NCBI RefSeq assembly: GCF_025231485.1
Contig: NZ_CP104003.1
Span: 868,001 to 932,000 of the forward strand
Length of the DNA: 64,000 nt
Direction: 5' to 3'
Origin: Salinirubellus salinus
GTDB taxonomy: Archaea; Halobacteriota; Halobacteria; Halobacteriales; Haloarculaceae
Under the pieces are notes generated by a model. That model saw nothing but the letters and a program-made list of their open reading frames with translations, was not told where the DNA came from and did no database searches. The translations under genes were made by a program, and so were the position numbers. Positions 1-58,575 of this stretch are shown here, in pieces; position 1 is the first letter of the stretch; every line of letters starts with the position of its first letter.

Positions 1-657
1 GGCAGCACGATGGTGGAGATGGGCGACGCCGACGCGATGCTCACCGGCCTGATGCACCACTACCCGTCGGCACTCCGCCCGCCGCTCCAGGTCATCGGCA
101 CCGAGGAGGACGTGGACTACGCCGCCGGTGTCTACATGCTGACGTTCAAGAACCAGGTCGTCTTCTGCGCGGACACCACGGTCAACCAGGCACCCGACGA
201 GGAGGTGCTCTCCGAGGTGGCCAAGCAGACGGCCAAGCTCGCCCGGCGGTTCAACGTCGAACCCCGCGTGGCGATGCTCTCGTACTCGGACTTCGGGAGC
301 GTGAACAACCCCGGCACGGCGAAGCCCCGCGACGCCGCCGAGATGCTCCGGGAGGACCCCGAGGTGGACTTCCCGGTCGACGGCGAGATGCAGGCCGACA
401 CGGCCGTCGTCGAGGAGATGCTCACCGGCGACTACAGTTTCAACGAACTCGAGGAACCCGCGAACGTCCTCGTGTTCCCCAACCTCGAAGCGGGGAACAT
501 CGCCTACAAACTGCTCCAGCGCCTCGGCGGCGCGGAGGCCATCGGCCCGATGCTCGTCGGGATGGACAAGCCCGTCCACGTCCTGCAGCGCGGCGACGAG
601 GTGAAGGACATCGTGAATCTGGCGGGCGTGGCGGTGGTGGACGCGCAGGACGACTGA
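1..657 (+). CDS. maeB: NADP-dependent malic enzyme, C-terminal part (phosphotransacetylase-like domain)
   Basis: The reading frame is already open at base 1, so only the last 218 or so residues are present. The segment resembles the phosphate acetyltransferase-like domain that follows the malic enzyme domain in large MaeB proteins, with patches such as MLSYSDFGS, DGEMQAD and NVLVFPNLEAGNIAYKLLQ. In the family this domain regulates rather than catalyses; the missing N-terminal part would convert malate to pyruvate with NAD(P). The ATG at position 10 is probably internal. Downstream lie 220 bases with two hairpins before the convergent menE gene. Confidence 0.88.
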   Translation, partial: GSTMVEMGDADAMLTGLMHHYPSALRPPLQVIGTEEDVDYAAGVYMLTFKNQVVFCADTTVNQAPDEEVLSEVAKQTAKLARRFNVEPRVAMLSYSDFGSVNNPGTAKPRDAAEMLREDPEVDFPVDGEMQADTAVVEEMLTGDYSFNELEEPANVLVFPNLEAGNIAYKLLQRLGGAEAIGPMLVGMDKPVHVLQRGDEVKDIVNLAGVAVVDAQDD

Positions 658-738
658 CCTCTCTTTACTCCTCGGGCTTCCTCGCTCGCTGCGCTCGCTT
701 CGGGGAGCCACTCGTCGCAAAAACGCGGAGAAAAACTG

Positions 739-786
739 CGCCCCTCGCTACGCTCGGGGCGGGTGGTGAGCGGTCCGCAGGACCGC
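739..786. terminator. two adjacent hairpins between convergent genes
   Basis: The first hairpin pairs CGCCCC (739-744) with GGGGCG (756-761). The second pairs GCGGTCC (770-776) with GGACCGC (780-786) around a three-base loop. They sit between the malic enzyme stop and the menE stop, where both transcripts should end. The rest of 658-879 is CTCGCT-rich low-complexity DNA with no gene that I can see. Confidence 0.4.
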
Positions 787-879
787 GAGTCTCGGCAGGC
801 GAGTGATAACGAGTCTACCGGTGGACCTCGCTCGCTGACGCTCGCTCGGACAGGGGCGGCGACCGCACCGCACGCGTTT

Positions 880-2376
880 TCACTCGTGCGCCGGCGCGGC
901 CTCCAGCAGTTCCCGCGCAGCCTCCCGGTCCACCGTCCCCGACGCCGTCCGCGGGAGTTCGTCGGTGAACACGACCGTCTTCGGCTTCTTGAACCCGGCC
1001 AGACGGCCGTCGAGGAACTCGAGGAGTTCGTCCTCCGCCACGTCGCCGACGACGAGCGCGGCGACCCGCTCGCCCCACTCCTCGTCCGGCAGGCCGAGGA
1101 CGGCCGCGTCCGAGACCATCGGGTGGTTCCGGAGGACGTCGAGCACGTCGCCGGGGTCGACGTTCTCGCCGCCCGTGACGATGCGGTCGTCCGCCCGGTT
1201 GAGGACGAACAGGCGACCGTTCTCGTCGCGGTAGCCCACGTCGCCCGTCCGGAACCCGTGGGTGCAGAACGACTCACGGGTCGAGGCCACGTCGCCGTAG
1301 TACCCCGCGGTGACGGTCGGACCGGAGACGACGATCTCGCCCGTCTCGTCCGTCCCGACCGGCCGGTGGTCCTCGTCGACGATGGTCACGTCGGTGAACA
1401 CGAGCGGGTTCCCGACCGTCCCGACTGCCTCGCGGGCCTCCCGCGGGGTCGCGGTGGCGATCTGCGAGGAGGTCTCGGTCATGCCGTAGGTGGGCGCGAC
1501 GGGCACGTCGCGTTCGAGACAGTCCCGGAGGAGCGTGCGCGGCGCCTTGGCCCCGCCGAGGAGGACGAACCGGAACGAGTCGGGGAAGGGGTCGTCGTCG
1601 TACGTGTCGAGGATACGTCGCAGCATCGTCGGGACGAGCGAGGTACAGGTCGCCCCGGTCCGGTGCATCGCCTCGACGGTCCGTTCGGGGTCGAACCCAC
1701 CCCCCGACCCCTCGACGACGACACTCGTCCCGTAGAGTACCGACCGATACACCGGTGCCAGCCCGCCCATGTGGTACATCGGGAGTGGGTCGTACCACCG
1801 GTCCTCGGGGAGGACGCCGAGGCGGAAGGCCGAGGCGCCGGCGCTGACCGCGAGGTTCGTCGCGGTGAGCGCGACGGCCTTCGGCGTCCCCGTCGTCCCC
1901 GAGGTGAACAGCATCACCTGTACGTCGTTGGGCGTCAACGCCGGGAGGTCGTAGGTCTCCGGCGAGACGCCGAGGAGGTCCCGGGTCCCGGCGTCTTCGT
2001 CGAGCGAGACGACGGGGACCTCGTTCGACTCCGCCGCGGGGACCGCCCGCTCGGCCGCCTCGGCGTCCGTCACGAGCGTGGAGAGGTCCGCACGGTCGAC
2101 CCGTTCGGTGAGTTCGGCGACCGTCAGTCGCGCGTTCAGGGGGACGAGGACCGCACCCACCCGCATCGTCGCGTGGACGAGGTCGACGAACGACGGCCCG
2201 GTCTCGCAGACGACGCCGACGTGGTCGTCGACACCCACGCCCAGCCCGGCCAGCCGCCCCGCGACCTCCTCGACACGCTCGTCGAGGGCCGCGTACGTCG
2301 TGGTCGTGCCGTCGACACCGTGGACCGCGGGCGCGGTCGGTGTCGCGTCTGCACGATGGGCCAGCCAATCCCGCAT
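880..2376 (-). CDS. menE: 2-succinylbenzoate-CoA ligase
   Basis: This 498-residue ANL-family adenylating enzyme activates o-succinylbenzoate to its CoA thioester in menaquinone synthesis. Visible motifs are the P-loop LFTSGTTGTPK, the A5 motif YGMTETSSQ, TGDVGYRDENGRLFV with the hinge aspartate, and the C-terminal lysine context LPRTASGTVDRE. ANL ligases have many substrates, so the assignment rests on menC (66 bp upstream) and menA in the same direction. An AT-rich patch near 2405 might support an extra internal start of transcription, but operon transcription from menA is more likely. Confidence 0.93.
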   Translation of the reverse strand: MRDWLAHRADATPTAPAVHGVDGTTTTYAALDERVEEVAGRLAGLGVGVDDHVGVVCETGPSFVDLVHATMRVGAVLVPLNARLTVAELTERVDRADLSTLVTDAEAAERAVPAAESNEVPVVSLDEDAGTRDLLGVSPETYDLPALTPNDVQVMLFTSGTTGTPKAVALTATNLAVSAGASAFRLGVLPEDRWYDPLPMYHMGGLAPVYRSVLYGTSVVVEGSGGGFDPERTVEAMHRTGATCTSLVPTMLRRILDTYDDDPFPDSFRFVLLGGAKAPRTLLRDCLERDVPVAPTYGMTETSSQIATATPREAREAVGTVGNPLVFTDVTIVDEDHRPVGTDETGEIVVSGPTVTAGYYGDVASTRESFCTHGFRTGDVGYRDENGRLFVLNRADDRIVTGGENVDPGDVLDVLRNHPMVSDAAVLGLPDEEWGERVAALVVGDVAEDELLEFLDGRLAGFKKPKTVVFTDELPRTASGTVDREAARELLEAAPAHE

Positions 2377-2442
2377 ACCGTCGCACTTGGGGAGAGGGGG
2401 ACTATTGAACTTTCGACGTGCGCGCCGGGGAGGACCGGTCGT

Positions 2443-3435
2443 TCAACACACCCCGGGGTGGGTCGGGACCGCGACGGCGCCCTCCGCCACCGGGACGGGG
2501 TCGGGGTCGAGGAGGTCCGTCGCCAGCAGGGCGCCCGTCCCGAGCCCGCAGGCGGGGACCGAGGGGAGCGACGCCGCGAGGTGGACCGCCGCGGCGCGGG
2601 CGTAGGCCCCGTCGATGGTCGTCGTGACGACGGTGTCGACGCCAGCCTCGTGCGCCCGGCGTGCGACGGTCCGGGCCGCGACGGGGCCGCCGAGCGTCAT
2701 CGGCTTCAGCACCACCGTGTCCGCGGCGTCGGCCGCGAGGACGGCGTCGAGGCCGTGCGCCGCGAGGCTCTCGTCCAGCGCGATGCCCACGCCCGCCCCT
2801 CGGAGTGCCGCGTGTCCCGAGAGGTCGGCGGCGGACAGCGGCTGTTCGAGGTACGCGAGGTCGAGGTCGGCCGCCCACTCGACGACGTCTGCGGCCGTCT
2901 CGCGGTCCCACGCCTCGTTGGCGTCGGCCCGGAGTTCCACGGCCGGGCAGGCGTCCCGGACCGCCGCGAGTCGCTCCCGGTCGCGGGACTGCTCGCCGAC
3001 GCCGACCTTGATCTTCACCGCGGGGAACCCCGCCTCGACGGCCTCCCGGGCCGCCGCTGCTGTCTGCGCCGGCGTGTCGTCACCGACGGTGGCGTTCACG
3101 GGGACGCTCGCTGCGGGGGCGTCCTCGCCGAGCCACGCGGCCAGCGACTCGCCGTTCGACCGCGCCTCGCAGCCCGCGACGGCCATCTCGACGGCGTGTC
3201 TCGCGGCAGGGTGGTCGCCCATCTCGTCGAGCGCGGAGACGGGGTCCGCGACGGCCTCGAGTGCCGCCCGACACTCCTCGAGCGACTCGGTCCACCCCGG
3301 CAGGGGGGTCGCCTCGCCGACGGCCGTCTCCCCGGCGTGCTCGACGTGGACGAGGAACCCCTCTCGTGCCTCGATGGGGCCGTTGGCGGTGCTCAGCGGC
3401 CGTGTCAGCGACAGCGAGAACGGCTCGACCCTCAT
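2443..3435 (-). CDS. menC: o-succinylbenzoate synthase
   Basis: This 330-residue enolase-superfamily enzyme dehydrates SHCHC to o-succinylbenzoate. The catalytic Lys-x-Lys is in AVKIKVGVG; metal ligands lie in LRADANEAWD, AYLEQPL and IALDES; the second catalytic lysine is in VVLKPMTLGG. The ATG at 3435 overlaps the menA stop (ATGA), which fixes the start and implies translational coupling. A much longer open frame reading through menA in the same frame is spurious. It lies between menA and menE. Confidence 0.95.
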   Translation of the reverse strand: MRVEPFSLSLTRPLSTANGPIEAREGFLVHVEHAGETAVGEATPLPGWTESLEECRAALEAVADPVSALDEMGDHPAARHAVEMAVAGCEARSNGESLAAWLGEDAPAASVPVNATVGDDTPAQTAAAAREAVEAGFPAVKIKVGVGEQSRDRERLAAVRDACPAVELRADANEAWDRETAADVVEWAADLDLAYLEQPLSAADLSGHAALRGAGVGIALDESLAAHGLDAVLAADAADTVVLKPMTLGGPVAARTVARRAHEAGVDTVVTTTIDGAYARAAAVHLAASLPSVPACGLGTGALLATDLLDPDPVPVAEGAVAVPTHPGVC

Positions 3436-4385
3436 AGGAGCGCCGGGAGCGCGAGCCCCAGCGCGAACAGCACCGAGTGCGCGAACAGGAGCTTGCCCGT
3501 CGTCTCGAGCGCCGGGTTCAGCGCGGCCCCCTCGGTGCGGCTCAGGACGGTCCGGGAGAGCGAGACGGCCAGCGGGAGCGTCAGGAGCGGCAGGAGCGTC
3601 GCGAGCGAGTAGCCCGTCAGCGCGAAGACGACCGGGACGACGTAGGCCGTCCCGACCATCAGCAGGAACTCGGCCCGGGCGCCGCGGTAGCCGAGCATGA
3701 CAGCGAGGGTGCGTTTCCCCGTCGCAGCGTCGGTCTCCCGGTCGCGGATGTTGTTCACGACGAGGATGGCCGTCGAGAGGCCGGCGGCGGGGAGCGACGC
3801 GACGATCGCCGCGAGCGGGACGGTGTCCGGCGGAATCCAGAGGGGGAACGCGCTCCCCGCCGCGGCGGCCTGCACGTAGTAGGTCCCGGCGACGGCGACG
3901 ACGCCGAAGTAGATGAACACGAACAGGTCGCCCAGTCCCCGGTAGCCGTAGGGGTACGGCCCACCCGTGTAGAGCACGCCAGCGGCCACCCCGGAGAGCC
4001 CGACGACGACGATGGGGAGTCCACCGACGTAGACGAGGTAGACTCCGACGAGGACGGCGAGCGCGTAGGTGAGCCACATCGCGCGCTTGACCCGCTCGGC
4101 GTCGATGATGCCTCCCGCGGTGACGCGGGTGAACCCCTCGCGGTCCTCGGTGTCGGCGCCCTTGACGGCGTCGTAGTAGTCGTTCGCGAAGTTGGTCCCG
4201 ACCTGCAGGAGGAGTGCCCCGACCAGCGCGAACAGGGCGGGCAGCGGGGCGAAGACGCCCGCGCCGACCGCGAGACCGGCCCCGACGACGACGGGGGCGG
4301 CCCCGGCCGGGAGGGTCTGTGGTCGGGCGGCCATCAGCCACGCCTCGGTTCGCGTGACGTCCGCCGCGGCCGGCTCGTTCGACAT
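3432..4385 (-). CDS. menA: 1,4-dihydroxy-2-naphthoate polyprenyltransferase
   Basis: This 317-residue UbiA-family membrane prenyltransferase attaches the isoprenoid tail to dihydroxynaphthoate. Two Mg-diphosphate motifs are visible: [15 protein letters not shown] and the later [12 protein letters not shown]. Multiple hydrophobic segments follow. The ATG at 4385 is preferred over an upstream in-frame start because an AT-rich TATA-like CTAAATC lies about 27 bp above it, giving a leaderless start. It is the promoter-proximal gene of menA-menC-menE. Menaquinone is the main respiratory quinone in haloarchaea. Confidence 0.94.
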
Positions 4386-4497
4386 TACTCCCACTTGGGC
4401 GGCGCGTGATTTAGCGACTGTGGTCCCGGTGGCCACAGTGGCCTCCGTGGCTCCTGTCGCACCCACACTTATGCTCGCGTCGCACCAACGACCTGTC

Positions 4498-4776
4498 ATG
4501 GCAGACCTGCTCTCCGAGGCCGAGATCGAGGCACAGAAACCCGCCGACTGGACGGTCGAGGGCGACGAACTCGTCCGGACCTACGAGTTCGACTCCTACC
4601 TCGAGGGCGTCGGCTTCGCCGCGGGGGCCGGCGGCCTCGCCGAGGAGGCGTTCCACCACCCCGAGCTCACCATCGGGTGGCGCGAGGTGGAGGTCCGGCT
4701 CACGACCCACGACGCCGGCGGCATCACCGAGAATGACACGGACCTCGCCGCCCGGTTCGACGAGCTCGCCGACTGA
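4498..4776 (+). CDS. 4a-hydroxytetrahydrobiopterin dehydratase family protein
   Basis: This 92-residue protein matches pterin-4a-carbinolamine dehydratase (PCD/DCoH). The conserved active-site block is present: EEAFHHPELTIGW, then VRLTTHDAGGITENDTDLA, giving the expected histidines and the G-x-T..D ending. PCD recycles pterin cofactor after aromatic hydroxylation; in archaea the partner is often unclear, and a role in molybdopterin metabolism has been suggested for some family members. A TATA-like ACTTATGC at about 4467 gives a leaderless start. The LWR-salt gene begins 4 bp downstream, so the two are probably cotranscribed. Confidence 0.92.
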   Translation: MADLLSEAEIEAQKPADWTVEGDELVRTYEFDSYLEGVGFAAGAGGLAEEAFHHPELTIGWREVEVRLTTHDAGGITENDTDLAARFDELAD

Positions 4777-4780
4777 GCCG

Positions 4781-5186
4781 ATGTCCGAGACCGACCACGG
4801 GGCACCGAGCGCCGAGTACCTCTTCCGGATACGGTTCAGGGTCGAGTCAGCCGACCCGGACGTCGCGCTCTCGCCGGACCGCTTCGAGTCGGTGCTGTCG
4901 AGACGGGCGGCCACGCCGGGCGAGGACGGCTGGCTCTTCTTCCGAGACAACCTCTGGCGCGGCGAAGGGGGGCGACGAGAGGTACCTCCGGGAACTGGCA
5001 GAGGACTCGCTCGGCGTCCCCGTCGAGTCCGTCGACTTCCGGGAGTTGCGGACCGACCCCGAGTACCTCGACGCGCTCCGAGCGGCCGTCGCCGACGACC
5101 TCTCGCTGTTCAAAGCGGACTCTGTCGACGAAGTGCTGAAGAAGTACCTCGGGTCGAGTATCCACGTGCGGCGCGGCCGGGAGTGA
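4781..5186 (+). pseudogene. LWR-salt family protein, frameshifted
   Basis: The N-terminal half, starting at the ATG at 4781, reads YLFRIRFRVE...GWLFFRDNLWRGEGG and then leaves frame at a run of six G (4967-4972). The remaining half continues one frame over as GDERYLRELAEDSLGVPVES...FKADSVDEVLKKYLGSSIHV and ends at the TGA at 5184-5186. Together they make a normal-length (about 135 residue) haloarchaeal LWR-salt protein, a family of unknown function named after its Leu-Trp-Arg motif. One extra G explains the break; it could be a base-calling error, a true lesion, or slippage. Confidence 0.8.
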
Positions 5187-5210
5187 CGGCGACCGGCCGC
5201 GCGCGACCGG

Positions 5211-5226
5211 GAACGACCGGTCGTTC
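5211..5226. repeat. perfect 16-bp palindrome
   Basis: GAACGACCGGTCGTTC is self-complementary and lies between the LWR-salt stop and the convergent membrane-protein stop at 5260, so it may help end transcription from both sides. Thirteen bases of it (GACCGGTCGTTCA) recur at 2433-2445, across the end of menC. Whether this is a shared signal or chance is open. Confidence 0.4.
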
Positions 5227-5259
5227 ACCGGCACCCTCCAACCGTGCCACCACGGCGGG

Positions 5260-5997
5260 TCATCGGGACTGTGGGATCCGCTCGGCACCGGCGACCCGGT
5301 CCGCTCCCGCGGTGTCACCAAGCGAGCCGAGCCGTCGGAAGTGGACAGCCGCGAGCACGGTCGCCACCGGGAACGTGAGTGCCCAGACCCCGAGCGATAG
5401 GAAGCTCACCGCCTCGGCCGCGGGCACGTGTCCCGCGGCGCCGAGGACCACCACGCCCACGAGGCTCGCGGCCCCGTTGAGGACGAACAGCCGCCGAACC
5501 CAGACGGCCAGTCGCCCGCCGCCGAAGGCGAAGCCACCGAACAGCATCGCGATGCCCATCAGACCGTAACCGACGCCCTCGAGCGTGCCCGTGAGGCTGT
5601 GTGGACTCCCGACGACGAACAGGTCGAGCCCCTCCGTGGCCCCCGCGGCTATCGCCTGTGGGACGAACGTCGCCAGCACGAAGTAGTTCGCACCGAGGAT
5701 AGCGCCGTAGGCCGTCGCGAAGCCGAACCCGAGGAGACTCCACACGCGTCGGCCCCTCGGCGTCGAGACGTGGACCGCCACCCAGAACGGCGCGAAGGTC
5801 AGCGCGAGGAGCAGCGGGGGGACCACCCACGCCAGATACGGACCAGGCTCGAAGGCGGCCGCGTACGCATCGATGCCGTTCCACGCCCCCAGTCCACTGA
5901 TCCACGGGACGAACGCGAGCACGAACCAGACGGCCCACGTCGCGAGCAGGGCCCCCGTCACTGCTCCCACTATCGTCTCTGGTCTCTCGGAGTTCAT
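5260..5997 (-). CDS. predicted multi-pass membrane protein, function unknown
   Basis: The 245-residue product has about six hydrophobic segments, beginning with IVGAVTGALLATWAVWFVLAFV near residue 10 and ending with VWALTFPVATVLAAVHF near 210, followed by a short charged tail. I recognise no named family. The start is supported by a TATA-like GTTTAACC at 6023-6030, about 27 bp upstream, which predicts a leaderless mRNA. It stands alone between the convergent LWR-salt gene and the patatin gene in the same direction. Confidence 0.8.
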   Translation of the reverse strand: MNSERPETIVGAVTGALLATWAVWFVLAFVPWISGLGAWNGIDAYAAAFEPGPYLAWVVPPLLLALTFAPFWVAVHVSTPRGRRVWSLLGFGFATAYGAILGANYFVLATFVPQAIAAGATEGLDLFVVGSPHSLTGTLEGVGYGLMGIAMLFGGFAFGGGRLAVWVRRLFVLNGAASLVGVVVLGAAGHVPAAEAVSFLSLGVWALTFPVATVLAAVHFRRLGSLGDTAGADRVAGAERIPQSR

Positions 5998-6086
5998 GTC
6001 GACAGGTGCGACGAGGTATTGGTTAAACAGGCGACATGAATCTCGCCGGCTGAGAACGGCCGCGGCGTGGAGCGGGGAGCGACAGG

Positions 6087-8075
6087 TCAGACCACCTCCC
6101 CCGGTGCGTCCCAGGCCACCTCCGCCGAGGCGGTCACGCCGAGCTGGTGCAACAGCCGGATGGTGTCCTCGACGACGCCCGTCTCCACGATGCGGCCGTC
6201 GTCGACGTGGTGGACGACCATCCGGGCGACGTCTACCGTCTCGCCGGTCGGCTCGACGTCGAGGAACCGGCCGTCGTGAGTCCCCCGGAGTCGCTGGCGG
6301 AGGAAGACCTTGTCACCCTCCGAGACGGTTTCCTCCACGGTGAGCCGCAGGTCGGGGAACCCCTCGCGGTAGCGTTGGACGAACTTCCAGTAGGCGTCGC
6401 GCCCGCGCAGCTCGCGGGCGCTGTCGAGGTAGAGGACGCTGTCGGCAGCGAGGACGCGGTCGAGTGCGTCGCGGTCGCCACGGTTCCACACCGCCTCGGT
6501 CAGCCGGTCCACGATGTCGCGGTTCTCGGTCGGTGCCGAGAGCTGTGTCACCACCGGCGTGGCCGCCACCCGGGCGGTCGTCGAGAGCCGCTCGGTCACG
6601 TCCGCGACACCGACCTGTCGGAGCAGCCCCCACCCCTCGTAGAGCGTCCACATCGTCGTTATCTTGCCATCGTCGAGGTGCAGCATCGACATCCCCGAGA
6701 GCGACACCGGGCGGTCGCTCGGCTCGGTACCGAGGAACGGCCCCGTGTTGGTTCCGGTGGCCCGCCAGCGAATCGCCACCCGGTCGGGCTCCGCCGCCGT
6801 CTCCTCGATCCGGAACGAGAGATCGGGTATCGCCTCGCGCATGGTCCGTGTGAACGACACGTACTCCGCGAGCCCGTACGGCGTCACCTCGGCCTCGGAC
6901 TCGCCGGCCAGGAATCGGCGAACCTCGACGAGATTGGAGGGCGAGTGGACCGTCAGCGACGGGGCCACCAGTCCGTCCCAGTCGGCCTCGCCCTCGTTCC
7001 AGACCTCCCGGACCGCCCGCTGGACGGTGCGACGGTCCCGCTCGACAGCGAGGAACCGACCAGCCTGTTCGCGGCCGTGGTCCCACAGCTGGTCGAGGAA
7101 CTCGTGCGACCGGTCCAGTTTCGTGGCGTAGTCGAGTGACCGGTCCGGCGAGACCATCGACTCGTCCAGCTCGACGGTCTTGACGGCTATCGGACGGAAC
7201 GCACCGACCGTCTCGCCCGCGGCCGCCGCCTCGTTCAGCAGGCGGACGAACTCGAGCTCCTGGTTGATGGAGAGGTTACCGCCGAGCTCGTTGCGGCGGT
7301 CGAGTATCTCCTCCGTGCGCCGAGGGACCCGGTCCTCGCGCTGGGGGTTGATCTGGACGACCCAGAGCTCGTCCGGCCGCTCCAACCGACCGGGCGTAGC
7401 CCTGAACAGCTCGCCCAGCGGCGGGTTCTGCGAGAAGAGCCCGTCCCAGTAGTACCGGACTGTGCCGTCGGGTTCGGTGACCGGCGCGGCCTCGAAGAGG
7501 TTCGGGACGGCCGTCGACGCGAGCACCGCGTCGTGGGTCACGTCCCGCTCCGTGAACGTCCTGAACGTGCCACGCTGGACGTCGACGGCACCGACGTCGA
7601 GCCGCGGTGGCGGCGAGTCGGGGTCGACCCCGTCGACGAGGTCGGCGAGGTCGGCGGCCGGCACCGCCCGTTCGAGCGTCCGACGCATGGTCCCCCGACC
7701 GAGTTCCGAGGCTGGCGTGTCGTAGGGACTCACCGACGGCATCGGCACGCCCATCCCTTGCGTTCGGGCGAGGCCCACCCCCAGCGCGTTGACGAACCGT
7801 TCCGGCGGCGAGTCCACGGCGATGTCGTCCCAGACCTGTCGGAGCAGCCGCCGAGCCTCCACCCGACCCTCGGAACCGGACTCGCTGGCGAGTGCGTACC
7901 ACGCGGTGAACGCACAGATGGCGCCGCCCGAGGTGCCGCTGAGTCCGACCACGTCGAACGCCACGTCGGTCTCCTCCAGCAGTCGGTCGAGCACGCCGGC
8001 GGTGAAGGCGGTGTGGCTCCCCCCGCCCTGACAGGCGACGGCGACTCGCGGCGGTCGAGACTCTCCACTGGACAT
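6087..8075 (-). CDS. patatin-like phospholipase fused to two SnoaL-like domains
   Basis: The 662-residue protein begins with a patatin hydrolase domain (about 1-330): oxyanion loop CQGGGSHTAF near 15-24, nucleophile Ser49 in GTSGG, and catalytic Asp211 in WDGLFSQNPP. Two SnoaL/NTF2-like domains follow, roughly 350-490 and 515-650, each with the sequence order F..P.....FPDL.....V..G..V..R....T..G.FLG/D.EPT.....V......H..DGKI....W/V, ending in LLRQVGV and LLHQLGV. Patatins cleave acyl ester lipids; SnoaL-like folds bind small hydrophobic molecules. I chose the ATG at 8075 over a TTG ten codons upstream. No neighbour indicates the substrate. Confidence 0.88.
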   Translation of the reverse strand: MSSGESRPPRVAVACQGGGSHTAFTAGVLDRLLEETDVAFDVVGLSGTSGGAICAFTAWYALASESGSEGRVEARRLLRQVWDDIAVDSPPERFVNALGVGLARTQGMGVPMPSVSPYDTPASELGRGTMRRTLERAVPAADLADLVDGVDPDSPPPRLDVGAVDVQRGTFRTFTERDVTHDAVLASTAVPNLFEAAPVTEPDGTVRYYWDGLFSQNPPLGELFRATPGRLERPDELWVVQINPQREDRVPRRTEEILDRRNELGGNLSINQELEFVRLLNEAAAAGETVGAFRPIAVKTVELDESMVSPDRSLDYATKLDRSHEFLDQLWDHGREQAGRFLAVERDRRTVQRAVREVWNEGEADWDGLVAPSLTVHSPSNLVEVRRFLAGESEAEVTPYGLAEYVSFTRTMREAIPDLSFRIEETAAEPDRVAIRWRATGTNTGPFLGTEPSDRPVSLSGMSMLHLDDGKITTMWTLYEGWGLLRQVGVADVTERLSTTARVAATPVVTQLSAPTENRDIVDRLTEAVWNRGDRDALDRVLAADSVLYLDSARELRGRDAYWKFVQRYREGFPDLRLTVEETVSEGDKVFLRQRLRGTHDGRFLDVEPTGETVDVARMVVHHVDDGRIVETGVVEDTIRLLHQLGVTASAEVAWDAPGEVV

Positions 8076-8213
8076 GCCGGGACGGGGGTGCAGCGCGCGT
8101 ATCAAGATAACTCAGGGGCCGGAGACGGTCACGGACCCGGTAGATTCTCGCGAACGGCGAGCCGGCGTGGGCGAGAAAGTTCTTATCCGGTGAGCCGCTA
8201 CGGTTCGGTTCCG

Positions 8214-8864
8214 ATGGTGCACCGCGACTACGACTACTGGGTCCTCGACCTCGACGGGACCCTCATCGACGTGGAGCCGGACTACGTCCACGAGGTGGTC
8301 GGTCGCGTGGGCGACCGCCTCGGCCACGGCTTCACAGACGAGCAGGCCGAGCGGGTCTGGCACTCCCTCGGCGGTGACCCGAACGCCGCGCTCGAGTCGT
8401 GGGGGCTCGACCCGCAGCGGTTCTGGGAGATCTTCCACGAGGAGGAGGACCCGGAGGCACGCGCCGACGCCACCTTCCTCTACGACGACGCGGCCCGATT
8501 CGCCGAGGTGGACCGCCCCCTCGCGCTCGTGACACACTGCCAGGAGTACCTCACGGACCCGGTCCTCGACGGACTCGACATCCGCGACTGGTTCGACACT
8601 GTCGTCTGCTGTACGGACGAGACGGGATGGAAACCCGACCCGACCCCCGTGGAGCTGGCCCTCGCACGCATCGACGCCCGCACGGAGGGTGAGGGAATCC
8701 TCGCGGGCGACGGCCCGCACGACGTGGGCGCGGCGTGGAACGCCGGCCTCGACGCGGTCCACGTCGAGCGCCACGGCCACCACCGACGCGGGATGTGCGT
8801 CCTCGGTGACCACCGCGTCTCCTCGTTCGACGAACTCTGGAGTGGGGACACCGCGGCCGACTGA
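8214..8864 (+). CDS. HAD-superfamily hydrolase (phosphoglycolate phosphatase-like)
   Basis: The 216-residue protein has HAD motif I as LDLDGTLIDVE near residue 11, motif II as LALVTHCQ, the lysine of motif III in GWKPDPTP, and motif IV as ILAGDGPHDVGAAWNAG. The helical cap between motif I and II makes it subclass IA, the group with phosphoglycolate phosphatase and pyrophosphatase PpaX. The substrate cannot be read from the sequence. A TATA-like TTCTTATCC near 8180 places the transcript start close to the ATG at 8214. Confidence 0.9.
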   Translation: MVHRDYDYWVLDLDGTLIDVEPDYVHEVVGRVGDRLGHGFTDEQAERVWHSLGGDPNAALESWGLDPQRFWEIFHEEEDPEARADATFLYDDAARFAEVDRPLALVTHCQEYLTDPVLDGLDIRDWFDTVVCCTDETGWKPDPTPVELALARIDARTEGEGILAGDGPHDVGAAWNAGLDAVHVERHGHHRRGMCVLGDHRVSSFDELWSGDTAAD

Positions 8865-8879
8865 CGGGGCCGGCGGCGT

Positions 8880-9296
8880 TCAGACCGCGCTGACGAGCGC
8901 CTCGCCGACCCGCCAGCAGACCACGGCGACGACCACGGGCAGGACGAGCACCGCGACGAGTCCGGGGACGGCGACGCCGAGGAGCACGTCGACGGTGACC
9001 AGCACCACCACGCCGACGAGCACGGAGCCCCCCAGCAGGTAGCCGACGACCCGGAGGACGGTGCGCTGGGCACCACTGAACACGGGGTCGTCGTCGCCGG
9101 TGAGCGCGAGCCCCAGGACGGCGAGGAACACGCCGGCGAGGACGCCGAGGCCGAGGAAGAGGACGGCGAACCCGCCGGGGATGTCACGCCCGGCGGGTGG
9201 CGGTGGTGGGAGCGTCGCGAGGCTCCGCACGGAACCGACGACGAGGAGGACGCCGACGGCGACGAGGAGCCAGCGGAGGGCATCACGGATGCGCAC
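8880..9296 (-). CDS. small membrane protein, function unknown
   Basis: The 138-residue product contains about four hydrophobic segments: WLLVAVGVLLVVGSV near 9, a long GGFAVLFLGLGVLAGVFLAVLG near 42, and two more between 83 and 128, with a Pro-rich loop (LPPPPPAG) after the first. No family is recognised. The start at 9296 has a TATA-like GGCTTATGCC at 9319-9328, consistent with leaderless expression. It converges on the HAD hydrolase gene and diverges from pyrF. Confidence 0.75.
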   Translation of the reverse strand: MRIRDALRWLLVAVGVLLVVGSVRSLATLPPPPPAGRDIPGGFAVLFLGLGVLAGVFLAVLGLALTGDDDPVFSGAQRTVLRVVGYLLGGSVLVGVVVLVTVDVLLGVAVPGLVAVLVLPVVVAVVCWRVGEALVSAV

Positions 9297-9390
9297 GTCC
9301 CCGCTCGTGGACCTGCCGGCATAAGCCTTCCAGCCGTGGGGACGGCGCTCGGACAGGCCCTGCCGCCGGCGCCGCGCCGAGGATGGGAAC

Positions 9391-9400
9391 GCTTGTAATC
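9391..9400 (+). promoter_or_regulatory. pyrF TATA-like promoter element
   Basis: The AT-rich GCTTGTAATC sits in GC-rich surroundings about 26 bp above the pyrF ATG, the usual archaeal TATA-to-start spacing for a leaderless transcript. Confidence 0.5.
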
Positions 9401-9421
9401 GCCCGCTCTGACCCCCCTTCG

Positions 9422-10219
9422 ATGAGCTTCTTCGACACGCTCGCGGCCCGTATCGACTCCGCCGACAGCGTCGTCTCCGTCGGCCTCGACCCGGACCCCG
9501 CGAAACTCCCGGACCACCTCGCGGACCACGACCTGCCGCGGTGGGCGTTCAACCGTCGCATCATCGACGCCACGCACGAGCACGCGGCCTGCTACAAGCC
9601 GAACGTGGCGTTCTACGAGGACAGCGACGGCTGGCGCGCACTCCGCGAGACCGTCGCCTACGCCCACGGCAAGGACGTCCCCGTCCTCCTCGACGCCAAG
9701 CGCGCCGACATCGGGAACACGGCCCGGCAGTACGCGAATCTGCTGGACCACGCCGACGCCATCACCGTGAACCCCTATCTCGGTCGGGACTCGCTGGAGC
9801 CGTTCCTCGCCCGGGAGGACAAGGGGATAATCGTCCTCTGTCGCACCTCGAACCCGGGCGGCAAGGACTTCCAGAACCTCACGGTCGGCAACGACAAGAA
9901 GCTCTACGAGTACGTCGCCCAGCGCTGCTCGGAGTGGAACGAGCGCGGGAACGTCGGTCTCGTCGTGGGGGCGACGGCGCCGGAGGAGCTCGAACGGGTG
10001 CGTGAACTCGTCCCGGACCTCCCGTTCCTCGTCCCCGGCGTGGGTGCGCAGGGCGGTGACGCCGAGGCGGCAGTCGAGTACGGCCTGAACGCCGACGGCG
10101 TCGGCCTCGTCAACTCCTCGCGCGGCATCATCTTCGCCGGCGAGGGCGAGAACTTCGAGGCCGCGGCGCGCCAGTCGGCCAGGCGACTGAAGGACCGACT
10201 GAACCGCTACCGGGACTGA
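9422..10219 (+). CDS. pyrF: orotidine 5'-phosphate decarboxylase
   Basis: This 265-residue enzyme decarboxylates OMP to UMP, the last step of de novo pyrimidine synthesis. The catalytic Asp-x-Lys-x-x-Asp array is in VLLDAKRADIGNTARQYA; the substrate-binding end is in FLVPGVGAQGGD and GLVNSSRGIIFAG. The length and the GLDPDPAKLP opening fit the longer OMPDC subfamily. Its last 13 bases overlap the 3' end of the convergent small membrane protein gene at 10207, an unusually tight arrangement. Confidence 0.96.
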   Translation: MSFFDTLAARIDSADSVVSVGLDPDPAKLPDHLADHDLPRWAFNRRIIDATHEHAACYKPNVAFYEDSDGWRALRETVAYAHGKDVPVLLDAKRADIGNTARQYANLLDHADAITVNPYLGRDSLEPFLAREDKGIIVLCRTSNPGGKDFQNLTVGNDKKLYEYVAQRCSEWNERGNVGLVVGATAPEELERVRELVPDLPFLVPGVGAQGGDAEAAVEYGLNADGVGLVNSSRGIIFAGEGENFEAAARQSARRLKDRLNRYRD

Positions 10220-10470
10220 GTCTCGCTCGGGCCGTCCCCCTGACGGTCCGTACCGACGAACCGGCCGATCGCGAGTCCCCCGCCCGTCGCGAGGAGGCCG
10301 TACCAGAAGGCGTACCGCTGGCCCGTCTCTCCCCAGACCACCTCGAAGAGGCTCTCCGTCGGACCGATGCGGCCGCCCGAGGCCAGCGCCATCGTCAGGA
10401 GTCCCGTCGTCGACAGGACGAGTGCCACACCGGCGACCACCTTCCGTCGGAATGCGTCCGTGGCGCTCAC
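10207..10470 (-). CDS. small two-helix membrane protein, function unknown
   Basis: I take the GTG at 10470 as the start (VSATDAFRRKVVAG), giving 87 residues; longer in-frame extension would run through the upstream zinc-protein gene in the wrong frame. There are two hydrophobic stretches, KVVAGVALVLSTTGLLTMAL near 10 and YAFWYGLLATGGGLAIGRFV near 52, joined by a loop with GRIGPTESLFEVVWGETG. The tail is polar. It begins 13 bp after the zinc-protein stop, so the two are likely cotranscribed. No family is recognised. Confidence 0.7.
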   Translation of the reverse strand: MSATDAFRRKVVAGVALVLSTTGLLTMALASGGRIGPTESLFEVVWGETGQRYAFWYGLLATGGGLAIGRFVGTDRQGDGPSETQSR

Positions 10471-10483
10471 GCGACGCGCACCC

Positions 10484-10702
10484 TCAGAACCGGTACTCTC
10501 CGACGCCGTCCGGGTGGTCTCGCTCGTCCCGGTCGCCGCCACGCTCGTGGGCCTCCCGGTGACCGTACACCTCGGCGTAGCAGGCCGTGCAGTACCCCGT
10601 CTCCTCGTCCACGTGCTTCGCGCAGACCAGTTTGCCGCAGCGCTCGCAACCGCCGACCACCTCCCGTCGCTCACACACCTCGCAGAGGCCGGAGACACTC
10701 AT
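10484..10702 (-). CDS. small zinc-binding protein (treble CxxC)
   Basis: The 72-residue product has three Cys-x-x-Cys pairs in its first 42 residues: CEVC, CERC and, after LVCAKHVDEETGY, CTAC, with an additional Cys and His between them. This spacing can bind two zinc ions. The C-terminus is charged and His-rich (REAHERGGDRDERDH). Small zinc proteins like this are common and mostly uncharacterised in haloarchaea; nucleic-acid or protein binding is possible. A TATA-like GGTTCAAACC about 25 bp upstream supports the ATG at 10702. Confidence 0.78.
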   Translation of the reverse strand: MSVSGLCEVCERREVVGGCERCGKLVCAKHVDEETGYCTACYAEVYGHREAHERGGDRDERDHPDGVGEYRF

Positions 10703-10757
10703 GAGTCGTGCTAACGCGCGAGTGGGTTTGAACCCTCGCCTCGGTCGGGGAGCTCGT

Positions 10758-10836
10758 TCGACCACGCTGCTCGCGTGTCGGTCGTTCCTCCCTCCCGCTC
10801 ACTGGTCCGTGGTCTCGCTTCGCTCGACCACGCTGC
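10758..10836. repeat. 13-bp direct repeat in an intergenic region
   Basis: TCGACCACGCTGC occurs at 10758-10770 and again at 10824-10836 within the 177-bp gap between two divergent genes. Nothing else in the gap suggests a mobile element. Confidence 0.4.
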
Positions 10837-10879
10837 CGCCGCCGAGACGCTTACTTCGGGGGAGGCCCAACGGGGAGAC

Positions 10880-11437
10880 GTGAAGAACCAGCGCCTGGTG
10901 CTCGCGTTGGCCGCCGTCTTCGCCGGCATGACCGTCCTGATGGTCGTGCTGGCGGCGGCGTTCCGCGACCCCGTCCCGCTGTTCGTCGCCGCGCTGTTCG
11001 GTGCGGCGACGTACTTCTTCTGGTACCACGCGACGGGGCGCATCGCCAGCGGCATCTACGAGCGGGTGGAGCGACAGGCCCGCACGAACGCCAACGGCGG
11101 GTCACCCGGCGGCCGCGGCGGATTCGGCGCCGGCCCGCGCGAGGACTGGGAAGCGCCGGGCGGCGACGACCGGTGGGAACGCGTGCGACAGCAGGCCCGC
11201 CAGCAACGCCGCCGTGCGCGGGCCGACGCACAGGGCCGCCGTCGCGCCCCCTCGACCACCAGCGGGCCCTCCCGCTCGCAGGCACGACAGGTGCTCGGCG
11301 TCTCCGCGGACGCCGACCAGGCGACGGTGAAGAAGGCCTACCGCGAGCGGGTGAAGGAGGCACACCCCGACACCGAGACCGGGAGCGAGGAGGAGTTCAA
11401 GCGCGTCAACAAGGCCTACGAGCGACTCAGCGAGTAG
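10880..11437 (+). CDS. membrane-anchored J-domain protein
   Basis: I start at the GTG at 10880 (VKNQRLVLALAAVFAG), 185 residues, because the upstream in-frame sequence is repeat-containing intergenic DNA. Two membrane helices (about 5-25 and 30-48) are followed by a Gly/Arg/Gln-rich linker and a C-terminal J domain near 133-185 with the HPD motif in VKEAHPDTETGSEEEFKRVNKAYERL. J domains stimulate DnaK ATPase; anchoring at the membrane with the J domain last differs from classical DnaJ, which has it first. Similar DnaJ-like membrane proteins occur across haloarchaea. Confidence 0.85.
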   Translation: MKNQRLVLALAAVFAGMTVLMVVLAAAFRDPVPLFVAALFGAATYFFWYHATGRIASGIYERVERQARTNANGGSPGGRGGFGAGPREDWEAPGGDDRWERVRQQARQQRRRARADAQGRRRAPSTTSGPSRSQARQVLGVSADADQATVKKAYRERVKEAHPDTETGSEEEFKRVNKAYERLSE

Positions 11438-56141: not shown

Positions 56142-57224
56142 TCAGAGCGGTTCCTCGCCCTCGATGATGCGCATCGCGCGCTCGGCCAGCGCCGGCACGC
56201 CGTCTTCCATCTTCGGGTACATCGGGTCGTCCGAGTTCCCCTCGAGGTACCGCCGGAAGAACATCTCGCCGAGGCCGGCCAGTTTGTAGACGGCGAGTGT
56301 CCGGTAGAACCGGTCGTTCTCGAACTCGAAGCCCGTCAGGTCCTCGTACCGGGCGACCAGTTCCGTCCGGGTCGGGTAGTCCTCGTGGGTCATGAACGTC
56401 CGCATCAGCGTGTCGGTCCCCGTCGGCGGCACGGGGTCCTTCTCGTCCCACCAGTACGAGAGCATCCAGCCGAGGTCGGTGAACGGGTCGCCGAGCGTCG
56501 ACATCTCCCAGTCGAAGATGGCGACGATCTCGGGCTCGTCCGCGGGGCCGAACATCACGTTGTCGAGCTTGTAGTCGCCGTGGACGAGCGTCGCCGGCGG
56601 GTCCTCCGGGACGTTGTCCTGGAGCCACTCCATCACCTCGTACAGTTCGGGCACCTCGCGCTCCTCGTTCGTGACCGAGAAGGCCCACATCAACTGCTCG
56701 GACCAGCGCCGCACCTGCCGCTCGGTGAACCCCGGCGGGTAGCCGAAGTCACCGACCTCGAGGCCGACCGCCTCGTAGTCGACGGCGTGGATCTCCGCGA
56801 GCGTGTCGACCAGTTCCTCCCCTATCTTCTTGCGCGCGTGTGCGTTCTGGAACCGGTCCGGCTCACCACGCCTGAGCACGTCACCGTCGACGCGCTCCAT
56901 CACGTAGAAGTCCGACCCCATCACGTCCTGATCGTCGCTGGCGAGGACGGTGGGTGGGACCCGCACCTCCGTGTCCTGCAGCGCGTCCATGACGCGGAAC
57001 TCGCGCAACACGTCGTGGGCGGTGTCGGCCGTCTCGCCCGGCGGGGGCCGACGGACGACGAGTTCCTTCTCGCCCCAGGTGACGAACAGCGTCTCGTTCG
57101 AGTGTCCCTCGGCGTGACGGCGGACCTCGTACTCCTCGGCTGGGCCGAGCTCGGCCTCCAGGTACTCCCGGAGTCTGTCGACGTTCACGAGCCGTCGGAA
57201 GTACTCCTCGCTGGTGTCGGTCAT
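56142..57224 (-). CDS. ACAD10/11- or LvaA-like phosphotransferase (candidate 4-hydroxyacyl-CoA kinase)
   Basis: The 360-residue protein belongs to the APH/kinase-fold phosphotransferases. The catalytic loop is LVHGDYKLDNVMF and the metal-binding aspartate lies in IVAIFDWEMSTLGDPFTDLGWML; VMERVDGDVL is the usual hinge. This pattern, with DWE.STLGDP, is the one in the N-terminal half of mammalian ACAD10/11 and in LvaA, which phosphorylate 4-hydroxyacyl-CoA. The divergent acyl-CoA dehydrogenase gene is the matching second half. Antibiotic resistance is less likely. A TTACAATG promoter 27 bp above the ATG implies a leaderless mRNA. Confidence 0.85.
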   Translation of the reverse strand: MTDTSEEYFRRLVNVDRLREYLEAELGPAEEYEVRRHAEGHSNETLFVTWGEKELVVRRPPPGETADTAHDVLREFRVMDALQDTEVRVPPTVLASDDQDVMGSDFYVMERVDGDVLRRGEPDRFQNAHARKKIGEELVDTLAEIHAVDYEAVGLEVGDFGYPPGFTERQVRRWSEQLMWAFSVTNEEREVPELYEVMEWLQDNVPEDPPATLVHGDYKLDNVMFGPADEPEIVAIFDWEMSTLGDPFTDLGWMLSYWWDEKDPVPPTGTDTLMRTFMTHEDYPTRTELVARYEDLTGFEFENDRFYRTLAVYKLAGLGEMFFRRYLEGNSDDPMYPKMEDGVPALAERAMRIIEGEEPL

Positions 57225-57250
57225 CGGGCCGACACCCCGTGGCTAGCTAA

Positions 57251-57258
57251 CATTGTAA
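57251..57258 (-). promoter_or_regulatory. TATA-like promoter of the phosphotransferase gene
   Basis: TTACAATG on the coding strand ends 27 bp above the ATG at 57224. It is a mirror image of the element at 57332-57340 serving the divergent gene. Confidence 0.55.
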
Positions 57259-57265
57259 GCAGGGA

Positions 57266-57296
57266 TACCCCCGCCCCCCACGAATAGTTGGGGGTA
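57266..57296. promoter_or_regulatory. nested palindrome between mirror promoters, candidate operator
   Basis: TACCCCC (57266-57272) pairs with GGGGGTA (57290-57296), and CCCCCA (57275-57280) pairs with TGGGGG (57289-57294). The site is midway in the 136-bp divergent region, between the two TATA-like elements, where one regulator could control both genes. Confidence 0.5.
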
Positions 57297-57331
57297 CGTG
57301 TCACACCGAGGACTAGTCTACGGACGCAGTC

Positions 57332-57340
57332 TTTACAATG
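57332..57340 (+). promoter_or_regulatory. TATA-like promoter of the acyl-CoA dehydrogenase gene
   Basis: TTTACAATG lies 21-29 bp above the ATG at 57361, predicting a leaderless transcript. It shares TTACAATG with the opposite promoter. Confidence 0.55.
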
Positions 57341-57360
57341 GTACGAACTGAGCCGTTGGT

Positions 57361-58575
57361 ATGGAGTATCACGACTCCCCCGAGGCACGGGAACTGGCCG
57401 AGAGGGCGCGCGCGTTCATGGACGAGGTCGTCATCCCCACCGAGCGGGACCTGCTGGCCGGTGGGCCGTTCACGGAGGACCTCGTGGACGAACTGCGCGC
57501 TGAGGCACGCGAACGGGACGTCTACTGTCCGCAGATCGACGAGGAACACGGCGGCATGGGCCACGAGTTCGCCGACGTGCTCCCGCTGTTCGAGGAGGCC
57601 GGCCGTTCGCTGCTGGGCGCGACGGCGATGCGCGTCGACGCCCCCGACGAGGGGAACATGCACACCATCGAACTGGTCGGCACCGAGGCCCAGAAGGAGG
57701 AGTACCTCGAACCGCTCGTCGCGGGCGAGATCCGCTCTGGCTTCTCGATGACCGAACCCCGCGATGGCGCCGGCTCGGACCCGAAGATGATGAGGACCAC
57801 CGCCACGAAGGACGGCGACGAGTGGGTCATCGACGGCCACAAGTGGTGGACCACGCAGGGTGACGAGGCCGACTTCTTCATCGTCATGGCCCGCACCGAC
57901 GTGGACGCGCACCCGTACGAGGGGACCTCACTGTTCCTGGTCGACGCTGACGCCGACGGTGTCGAGATTGTCGAACCCACGCCGCACCTCGGACAGTCGA
58001 TGATCCCCGAGAGCCACGCCGAGATCCGTTACGACGGCGTCCGCGTCTCGGAGGACGCGCTCCTCGGCACCGAGAACATGGGCTTCGTCCACGCCCAGCA
58101 GCGACTCGGGCCGGCCCGACTGACCCACTGCATGCGCTTCACGGGGATGGCCACGCGCGCGCTCACCATCGCCAAGACCTACATGGACGACCGCGAGGCG
58201 TTCGACTCGACGCTCGCGGAGAAGCAGGCCCAGCGCTACGCCATCGCGGACATGGAGACCCGCCTCCACGCGGTCCGGACGATGGTCCGCCACGCCGCCC
58301 GCCAGATATCCGCGGGCGAGGAGGCTCGCATCCCCGTCTCCATGTCGAAGGTGTTCGCCGCGAACACCACGCAGGAGGCCGTGGACCTCTCCATCCAGTG
58401 CTGTGGTGGTCCCGGGATGTCCCGGAAGCTCCCGCTCGCGGACTTCTACGACGCGGTCCGCGCGTTCCGCATCGTCGACGGAGCCGACGAGGTCCACAAG
58501 CGTGTCATCGCGCGTGACGCGTTCGACGAAGCGAACGTTCGGCCCGAGGAACTGGCGAACCTGCCCACCTTCTAG
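57361..58575 (+). CDS. ACAD10/11- or LvaC-like acyl-CoA dehydrogenase
   Basis: The 404-residue protein has normal ACAD flavin/substrate segments (SGFSMTEPRDGAGSDPKMM, IDGHKWWTTQGDEADFFIVMART, GPARLTHCMRFTGMATRALTIA, QCCGGPGMSRKLPLADFY). At the usual catalytic site, where Y-E-G-T is expected, it reads RIVDGADEVH with Asp373, like the ADGPDEVH of mammalian ACAD10/11. In that family the kinase half phosphorylates 4-hydroxyacyl-CoA and this half turns the product into a 3-hydroxyacyl-CoA. The divergent kinase-like gene supports the same role here. Ordinary short-chain dehydrogenation is the alternative. Confidence 0.9.
   Translation: MEYHDSPEARELAERARAFMDEVVIPTERDLLAGGPFTEDLVDELRAEARERDVYCPQIDEEHGGMGHEFADVLPLFEEAGRSLLGATAMRVDAPDEGNMHTIELVGTEAQKEEYLEPLVAGEIRSGFSMTEPRDGAGSDPKMMRTTATKDGDEWVIDGHKWWTTQGDEADFFIVMARTDVDAHPYEGTSLFLVDADADGVEIVEPTPHLGQSMIPESHAEIRYDGVRVSEDALLGTENMGFVHAQQRLGPARLTHCMRFTGMATRALTIAKTYMDDREAFDSTLAEKQAQRYAIADMETRLHAVRTMVRHAARQISAGEEARIPVSMSKVFAANTTQEAVDLSIQCCGGPGMSRKLPLADFYDAVRAFRIVDGADEVHKRVIARDAFDEANVRPEELANLPTF

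Follow-up and report, generated by a model that had tools for sequence, protein, structure and literature searches.

Divergent genes for an ACAD11-type kinase and dehydrogenase

The window, meaning the whole 64-kb stretch of DNA analyzed, comes from a 4.38-Mb genome whose closest named relatives are haloarchaea, such as Haloglomus, Halorarius, Halomarina, Natronomonas, and Halorientalis. Two divergently transcribed genes are of interest. The gene on the reverse strand (56142 to 57224) encodes a 360-aa LvaA/ACAD11-type kinase (PF01636), predicted to be a 4-hydroxyacyl-CoA kinase, and the gene on the forward strand (57361 to 58575) encodes a 404-aa LvaC/ACAD11-type acyl-CoA dehydrogenase (ACAD) family protein, predicted to catalyze FAD-dependent phosphate elimination from 4-phosphoacyl-CoA to 2-enoyl-CoA. 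Both open reading frames named in the sequence-only reading were found at these positions with all of its motifs, HGDYKLDN and DWEMSTLGDP in the kinase and VDGADEVH in the ACAD. The genes share an intergenic region of 136 bp (57225 to 57360), and the divergent arrangement of kinase and ACAD recurs in 58 distinct homologous intergenic regions. Other window neighbors (quinone oxidoreductase-like, rhomboid-like, methyltransferase, and metallo-beta-lactamase fold proteins) each recur in a minority of relatives only.

The kinase matches the Pfam APH family (4e-47), and its relatives are annotated as "phosphotransferase family protein" or "aminoglycoside phosphotransferase." Among PDB sequences, the top-ranked match is 9o56 (5e-65), which bears only the title "aminoglycoside phosphotransferase," followed by 3dxp (1e-45) and the mouse ACAD11 kinase domain (4e-45); 25-hydroxy steroid kinase matches at 5e-11 compared to the 4e-45 of ACAD11, and capreomycin kinase matches at 1e-5. 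Fold ranking of the AlphaFold model (pLDDT 89.5) places 3dxp, 25-hydroxy steroid kinase, and Rv3168 at the top, with antibiotic kinases far weaker. Equivalents of the catalytic Asp and Asn of ACAD11 (D220 and N225; the Asp is Asp217 in the window kinase), of R176, and of the alphaC Arg-Glu are present and invariant across 140 aligned sequences, where R86 was placed by its description as the neighbor of the alphaC Glu, the position count being off by two. In the ACAD10/11 kinase domain, R176 has been implicated in CoA binding. A second LvaA-type kinase with 56% identity is encoded in the same genome, with an AMP-binding acyl-CoA ligase gene after it on the same strand (locus L169, 1265 to 4381; C1, about 2,886,260 to 2,889,380).

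The top PDB sequence matches of the ACAD are 4hr3 and ACAD11, above every ordinary ACAD, and a fold search also returns these two first, with fold alone hardly setting them apart from other ACADs. By sequence, the nearest functionally characterized relative of each protein is one half of ACAD11. The residues distinguishing ACAD10/11 and LvaC are R626, H634, and R637 (HCMR), the catalytic D753, and a helix-breaking Pro (PMC12440821, PMC11342911), which is P463 in human ACAD11 (PMC11342911). The fingerprint P/R626/R631/H634/R637/D753 (mouse numbering for R626 and D753) is complete in the window ACAD: QQRLGPARLTHCMR and VDGADEVH carry the HCMR, the upstream phosphate-binding Arg, and the catalytic Asp replacing Glu, and the Pro is present in APDEGNM, aligned at APDxGNM. 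Two paralogs in the genome (65 and 61% identity) also have the full fingerprint, whereas all 17 other ACADs aligned from this genome lack it. It is complete in 99 of 100 ACADs of the loci from L030 onward, a mostly kinase-linked set in which some genomes are counted twice. The only ACAD without it, L167, is of the ordinary type and unlinked. No LvaA-type kinase gene adjoins the two further LvaC-type ACADs with full fingerprint in this genome (L007/L171 and L008/L170), and L170 lies near an SDR gene. One more ACAD-like match (L009; C1:3979603-3980646) has a 751-aa frame with a single in-frame TGA, which may just mark where the gene itself stops or else point to a pseudogene or an artifact of the frame.

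In an ACAD tree without P. putida LvaC, the window clade stands with ACAD11 and the kinase-linked ACADs of bacteria on one side of a branch with 100/100 support and the ordinary ACADs of the genome on the other, with a tool warning that long branches meet across this split. In the kinase tree, ACAD11, 3dxp, 9o56, and bacterial kinases cluster (99/99) beside the haloarchaeal kinases; with a single non-LvaA outgroup, this tree is supporting, not decisive. Phylogeny had been named in the sequence-only reading as a check, and for the ACAD it gave a placement away from ordinary ACADs, contrary to the refuting outcome named there; the separation of the kinase from aminoglycoside and choline kinases, based on searches and a one-outgroup tree, is less stringent.

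Co-occurrence and pathway partners

Close homologs of the kinase and the ACAD are both present in 145 of 292 haloarchaeal genomes and both absent from the other 147, and no genome has one alone; these sets were compiled by hand from homolog tables in which strong and weak matches were clearly bimodal. Both states occur within each of 15 genera, which points to repeated joint gain or loss. Where the pair is missing, ordinary ACADs are usually present nonetheless. When sampling was widened across the phylum, the 27 matches obtained all fell within the same order. The two genes are divergent in many haloarchaea and in tandem, ACAD-kinase, in Actinobacteria, and a related tandem pair lies on Thermus pTT27; the linkage is thus independent of gene order.

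Beside the window pair, no CoA ligase, SDR, or hydratase gene was found. Near the kinase gene of relatives, genes for an SDR oxidoreductase, a HAD hydrolase, and a 3-hydroxyacyl-CoA dehydrogenase/enoyl-CoA hydratase (HCDH-ECH) fusion are recurrent, and homologs of the SDR (82%) and HCDH-ECH (74%) of these relatives are encoded elsewhere in the window's genome. The LvaD protein of the lva operon is likewise an SDR. The HAD neighbor was also considered as an equivalent of the HAD domain of ACAD10 (itself outside the comparison), an idea dropped since the HAD of relatives scores far below the cut-off of TIGR02247, the epoxide hydrolase N-terminal-like HAD model (33 versus 125 bits). In loci of Natrialbaceae (L121, L123, L124, L131, L132, and similar), the HAD and kinase genes lie in a row, often followed by HCDH-ECH and sometimes with an SDR gene opposite, in a stretch without an LvaC-type ACAD.

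A complete-looking 4-hydroxy acid catabolic cluster is found on plasmid pHME132 of Haloferax mediterranei (L195, NZ_CP039142.1, about 1 to 11070), where genes for a CoA ligase, an ACAD, an HTH protein, a dehydrogenase/hydratase, the kinase, an LvaC-type ACAD, a HAD protein, and an SDR lie within about 11 kb. The kinase and the LvaC-type ACAD of this cluster have the locus tags E6P09_RS18925 and E6P09_RS18920. The proteins of this cluster belong to the same families as their other haloarchaeal counterparts. An operator-like site with one mismatch lies about 30 to 40 nt upstream of the SDR gene on this plasmid.

Paired dyad sites in the intergenic region

The 64-kb window contains just two copies of the octamer TTACAATG, a mirrored pair between the two genes (57251 to 57258 on the reverse strand and 57333 to 57340 on the forward strand), compared to 0.02 matches expected in the window and two copies in none of 100 shuffles. 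Across the genome, the 8-mer class TWACAWTG shows no excess (22 occurrences versus 22 for the reversed pattern), meaning that the pair is a local feature and that TTACAATG alone defines no regulon in the window's genome. Relatives keep the pair at the same place. Alignment of the 58 distinct homologous intergenic regions places the kinase-side copy inside a dyad, CTTACAATGTTAG or CTAACAATGTTAG. In the window, the operator-like dyad CTTACAATGTTAG (57247 to 57259, reverse strand) is an exact match to the 13-bp dyad YTWACAWTGTTRG, centered about 29 nt upstream of the kinase ATG. The second operator-like site, TTTACAATGGTAC (57332 to 57344, forward strand), begins 29 nt upstream of the ACAD ATG, the TATA position of a leaderless gene. 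Across the 58 regions, the ACAD-side TTTACAATG is mostly fixed at -29: TTTACA starts there in 22 of them, and it starts at -35 mostly where an ATG is present 6 nt further upstream.

Exact YTWACAWTGTTRG is present in 21 of the 58 regions, and dinucleotide-shuffled regions have nothing within 1 mismatch of it. Within one mismatch, 59 sites were found in 742 kb of relatives versus 0 to 1 in shuffles and 2 for the reversed sequence, counts that are neither blind nor independent because the pattern was derived from the same regions and the sequences are related. In Natrialbaceae, sites also occur before the SDR gene and at the HCDH-ECH gene, both outside the derivation of the pattern. No operator at up to 2 mismatches was found at the kinase and ACAD paralogs or at the SDR and HCDH-ECH homologs of the window's genome.

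The TTACAATG pair might be just two similar TATA-like core promoter elements acting without a dedicated regulator, a reading that we consider unlikely. It fits with the ACAD-side element, since -29 is where the TATA element of a leaderless haloarchaeal gene is expected, but not with the kinase-side site, which is a near-perfect dyad and whose distance to the gene varies among relatives. Moreover, both half-sites have changed together in some relatives of one lineage (ACAATGT to CCAATGG), and further copies lie near the SDR and HCDH-ECH genes assigned to the same pathway, the total of 59 occurrences far exceeding those in the controls. The paired TTACAATG sites look more like a conserved dyad operator of 13 bp, YTWACAWTGTTRG, than like promoters. 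A dimeric regulator may act at both promoters, and the divergent kinase and ACAD genes are probably co-regulated via the pair of dyad operators. Of the mirror-image promoters around a nested palindrome described in the sequence-only reading, the mirrored pair is conserved, the promoter-only view gives way to an operator-like dyad, and the palindrome is unconserved. The latter is probably the GC-rich TACCCCC...GGGGGTA at 57266 to 57296; we discarded it as a functional element, since it is found in just 1 of the 58 regions, the window's own, and is probably incidental.

Predicted chemistry, substrates, and relation to known systems

Homology, the active-site fingerprint, trees, co-occurrence, and gene context support the proposal of a split ACAD10/11 (LvaA plus LvaC) module. 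We consider it very probable that this two-gene module strips the 4-hydroxyl from acyl-CoAs for beta-oxidation by kinase-primed, ACAD-catalyzed phosphate elimination, with both genes probably under common regulation. In this scheme, the kinase would transfer phosphate from ATP to the 4-hydroxyl of a 4-hydroxyacyl-CoA. In the ACAD-fold enzyme, Asp373 would abstract the alpha proton while Arg248, His256, and Arg259 hold the 4-phosphate. This step would use FAD yet be redox-neutral overall, with phosphate leaving to give trans-2-enoyl-CoA. Enoyl-CoA hydratase, 3-hydroxyacyl-CoA dehydrogenase, and thiolase would then finish the oxidation, and the dyad operators of the shared intergenic region would probably co-regulate both genes. 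Unlike the native substrate, phosphorylation-elimination chemistry by the kinase and the ACAD is well supported at the level of predicted function. One part of the original proposal needs correction: the pair had been said to yield 3-hydroxyacyl-CoA, but the expected ACAD product is 2-enoyl-CoA, and 3-hydroxyacyl-CoA arises from it by hydration that is partial or non-enzymatic (PMC12440821, PMC11342911).

Two other readings of the pair bear on this assignment. That the kinase is an aminoglycoside, macrolide, or choline-type phosphotransferase merely adjoining an ordinary acyl-CoA dehydrogenase is suggested by the phosphotransferase annotations of its relatives and by the Pfam APH fold, and yet we regard it as highly improbable: the kinase falls far under the cut-off of the NCBIfam antibiotic-kinase models (44 versus 205 bits), and chance neighbors would hardly show co-occurrence in 145 of 145 genomes, linkage in other phyla, a shared operator, and the ACAD fingerprint. 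A greater, though still small, probability goes to kinase-primed phosphate elimination on some other hydroxyacyl-CoA, for instance a tertiary alcohol or a side chain released when isoprenoids or steroids are degraded. Haloarchaeal membranes are isoprenoid, which counts for this reading, as does the presence of three LvaC-type ACADs and two LvaA-type kinases in one genome, whose substrates may have diverged. Other alcohols, including 25-hydroxy steroids, are substrates of APH-type kinases from the same superfamily. The 25-hydroxy steroid kinase, the next fold match after 3dxp, primes the elimination of a tertiary alcohol (PMC8449060). By the E values given above, however, this kinase is far more distant than ACAD11, and the window ACAD keeps unchanged the residues that bind phosphate at the 4-position in ACAD11. 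We favor a 4-hydroxyacyl-CoA as the substrate class; at a guess, the likeliest substrates derive from 4-hydroxyvalerate formed from levulinate, or from further short 4-hydroxy acids and gamma-lactones.

Only H. mediterranei makes levulinate or 4-hydroxyvalerate a candidate substrate. We take strain DSM 1411 of this species to be the same as ATCC 33500. Levulinic acid is reported to support growth of DSM 1411 (mu of 0.097 per hour) (PMC12455835). No literature linking the pHME132 cluster to levulinate growth was found, and the cluster provides candidate genes for the growth reported for this bioplastic-producing haloarchaeon. We lean, by a narrow margin of belief, to a broader view in which haloarchaea have a dedicated regulon under operator control (kinase, ACAD, SDR, HAD, and hydroxyacyl-CoA dehydrogenase/hydratase) that breaks down 4-hydroxyacyl-CoAs after priming by ATP. 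This would be the first description of such a pathway in Archaea, and its plasmid version would explain growth of H. mediterranei on levulinic acid.

The chemistry of ACAD10/11 was assigned only in 2024-2025, and neither paper mentions archaea (PMC12440821, PMC11342911). The sequence-only reading knew of no described haloarchaeal version, and our search of the open-licence literature likewise returned none for an archaeal lva/ACAD11 pathway. The type of system is already known; what is new is an archaeal branch with its own control site. With perfect co-occurrence in about half of the sampled haloarchaea, this branch offers an independent set of separate enzymes for studies of structure and mechanism. 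It also flags the "aminoglycoside phosphotransferase" annotations as probably naming the wrong substrate and raises the question of the natural substrate in organisms without fatty-acyl membrane lipids, the pathway being known in mammals for 4-hydroxy fatty acids.

Both window proteins are homologous over most of their length to the two domains of ACAD11, and the ACAD shares HCMR, the upstream Arg, the catalytic Asp, and the APDxGNM Pro with mammalian ACAD10/ACAD11 (PMC12440821, PMC11342911; PDB 8V3U, 8V3V, 2WBI), in which, unlike in the window, kinase and ACAD are fused. The lva operon of Pseudomonas putida serves levulinate catabolism (Rand et al. 2017, as described in PMC6692424 and PMC12440821). 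Its LvaA and LvaC resemble the window pair in being encoded by separate genes and in their published catalytic motifs, the P. putida sequences themselves being outside the direct comparison, and SDR and CoA-ligase partners are shared by relatives such as H. mediterranei. In contrast to that single operon, the window pair is divergent with its partners scattered in the genome: the LvaE/LvaD-type CoA ligase and SDR are not co-located with it, as they are in the H. mediterranei cluster, no LvaB-like gene was found when DUF6285 was taken as the putative LvaB family, and no lvaR-type regulator gene was seen adjoining it. The P. citronellolis cluster likewise is without lvaB. We know of no ACAD-type partner for the 25-hydroxy steroid kinase of Sterolibacterium. 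That enzyme (PMC8449060; PDB 9FSG) is similar in being an APH-fold kinase that phosphorylates an alcohol en route to dehydration but differs in its distant sequence and steroid substrate. On pTT27 of Thermus thermophilus HB8, an ACAD gene (RLTHCMR) adjoins a phosphotransferase gene in an acyl-CoA catabolic cluster that also has a DUF6285 gene, in tandem unlike the window pair. A simple text search found no AHDxxxE, RQV, or DWE in this kinase and no DGxDEV in this ACAD, suggestive of a divergent relative. The window's genome has no DUF6285 homolog; on pTT27 the DUF6285 gene lies immediately 3' of the phosphotransferase gene (L196, 7074 to 7424), and one might guess that DUF6285 is the LvaB family.
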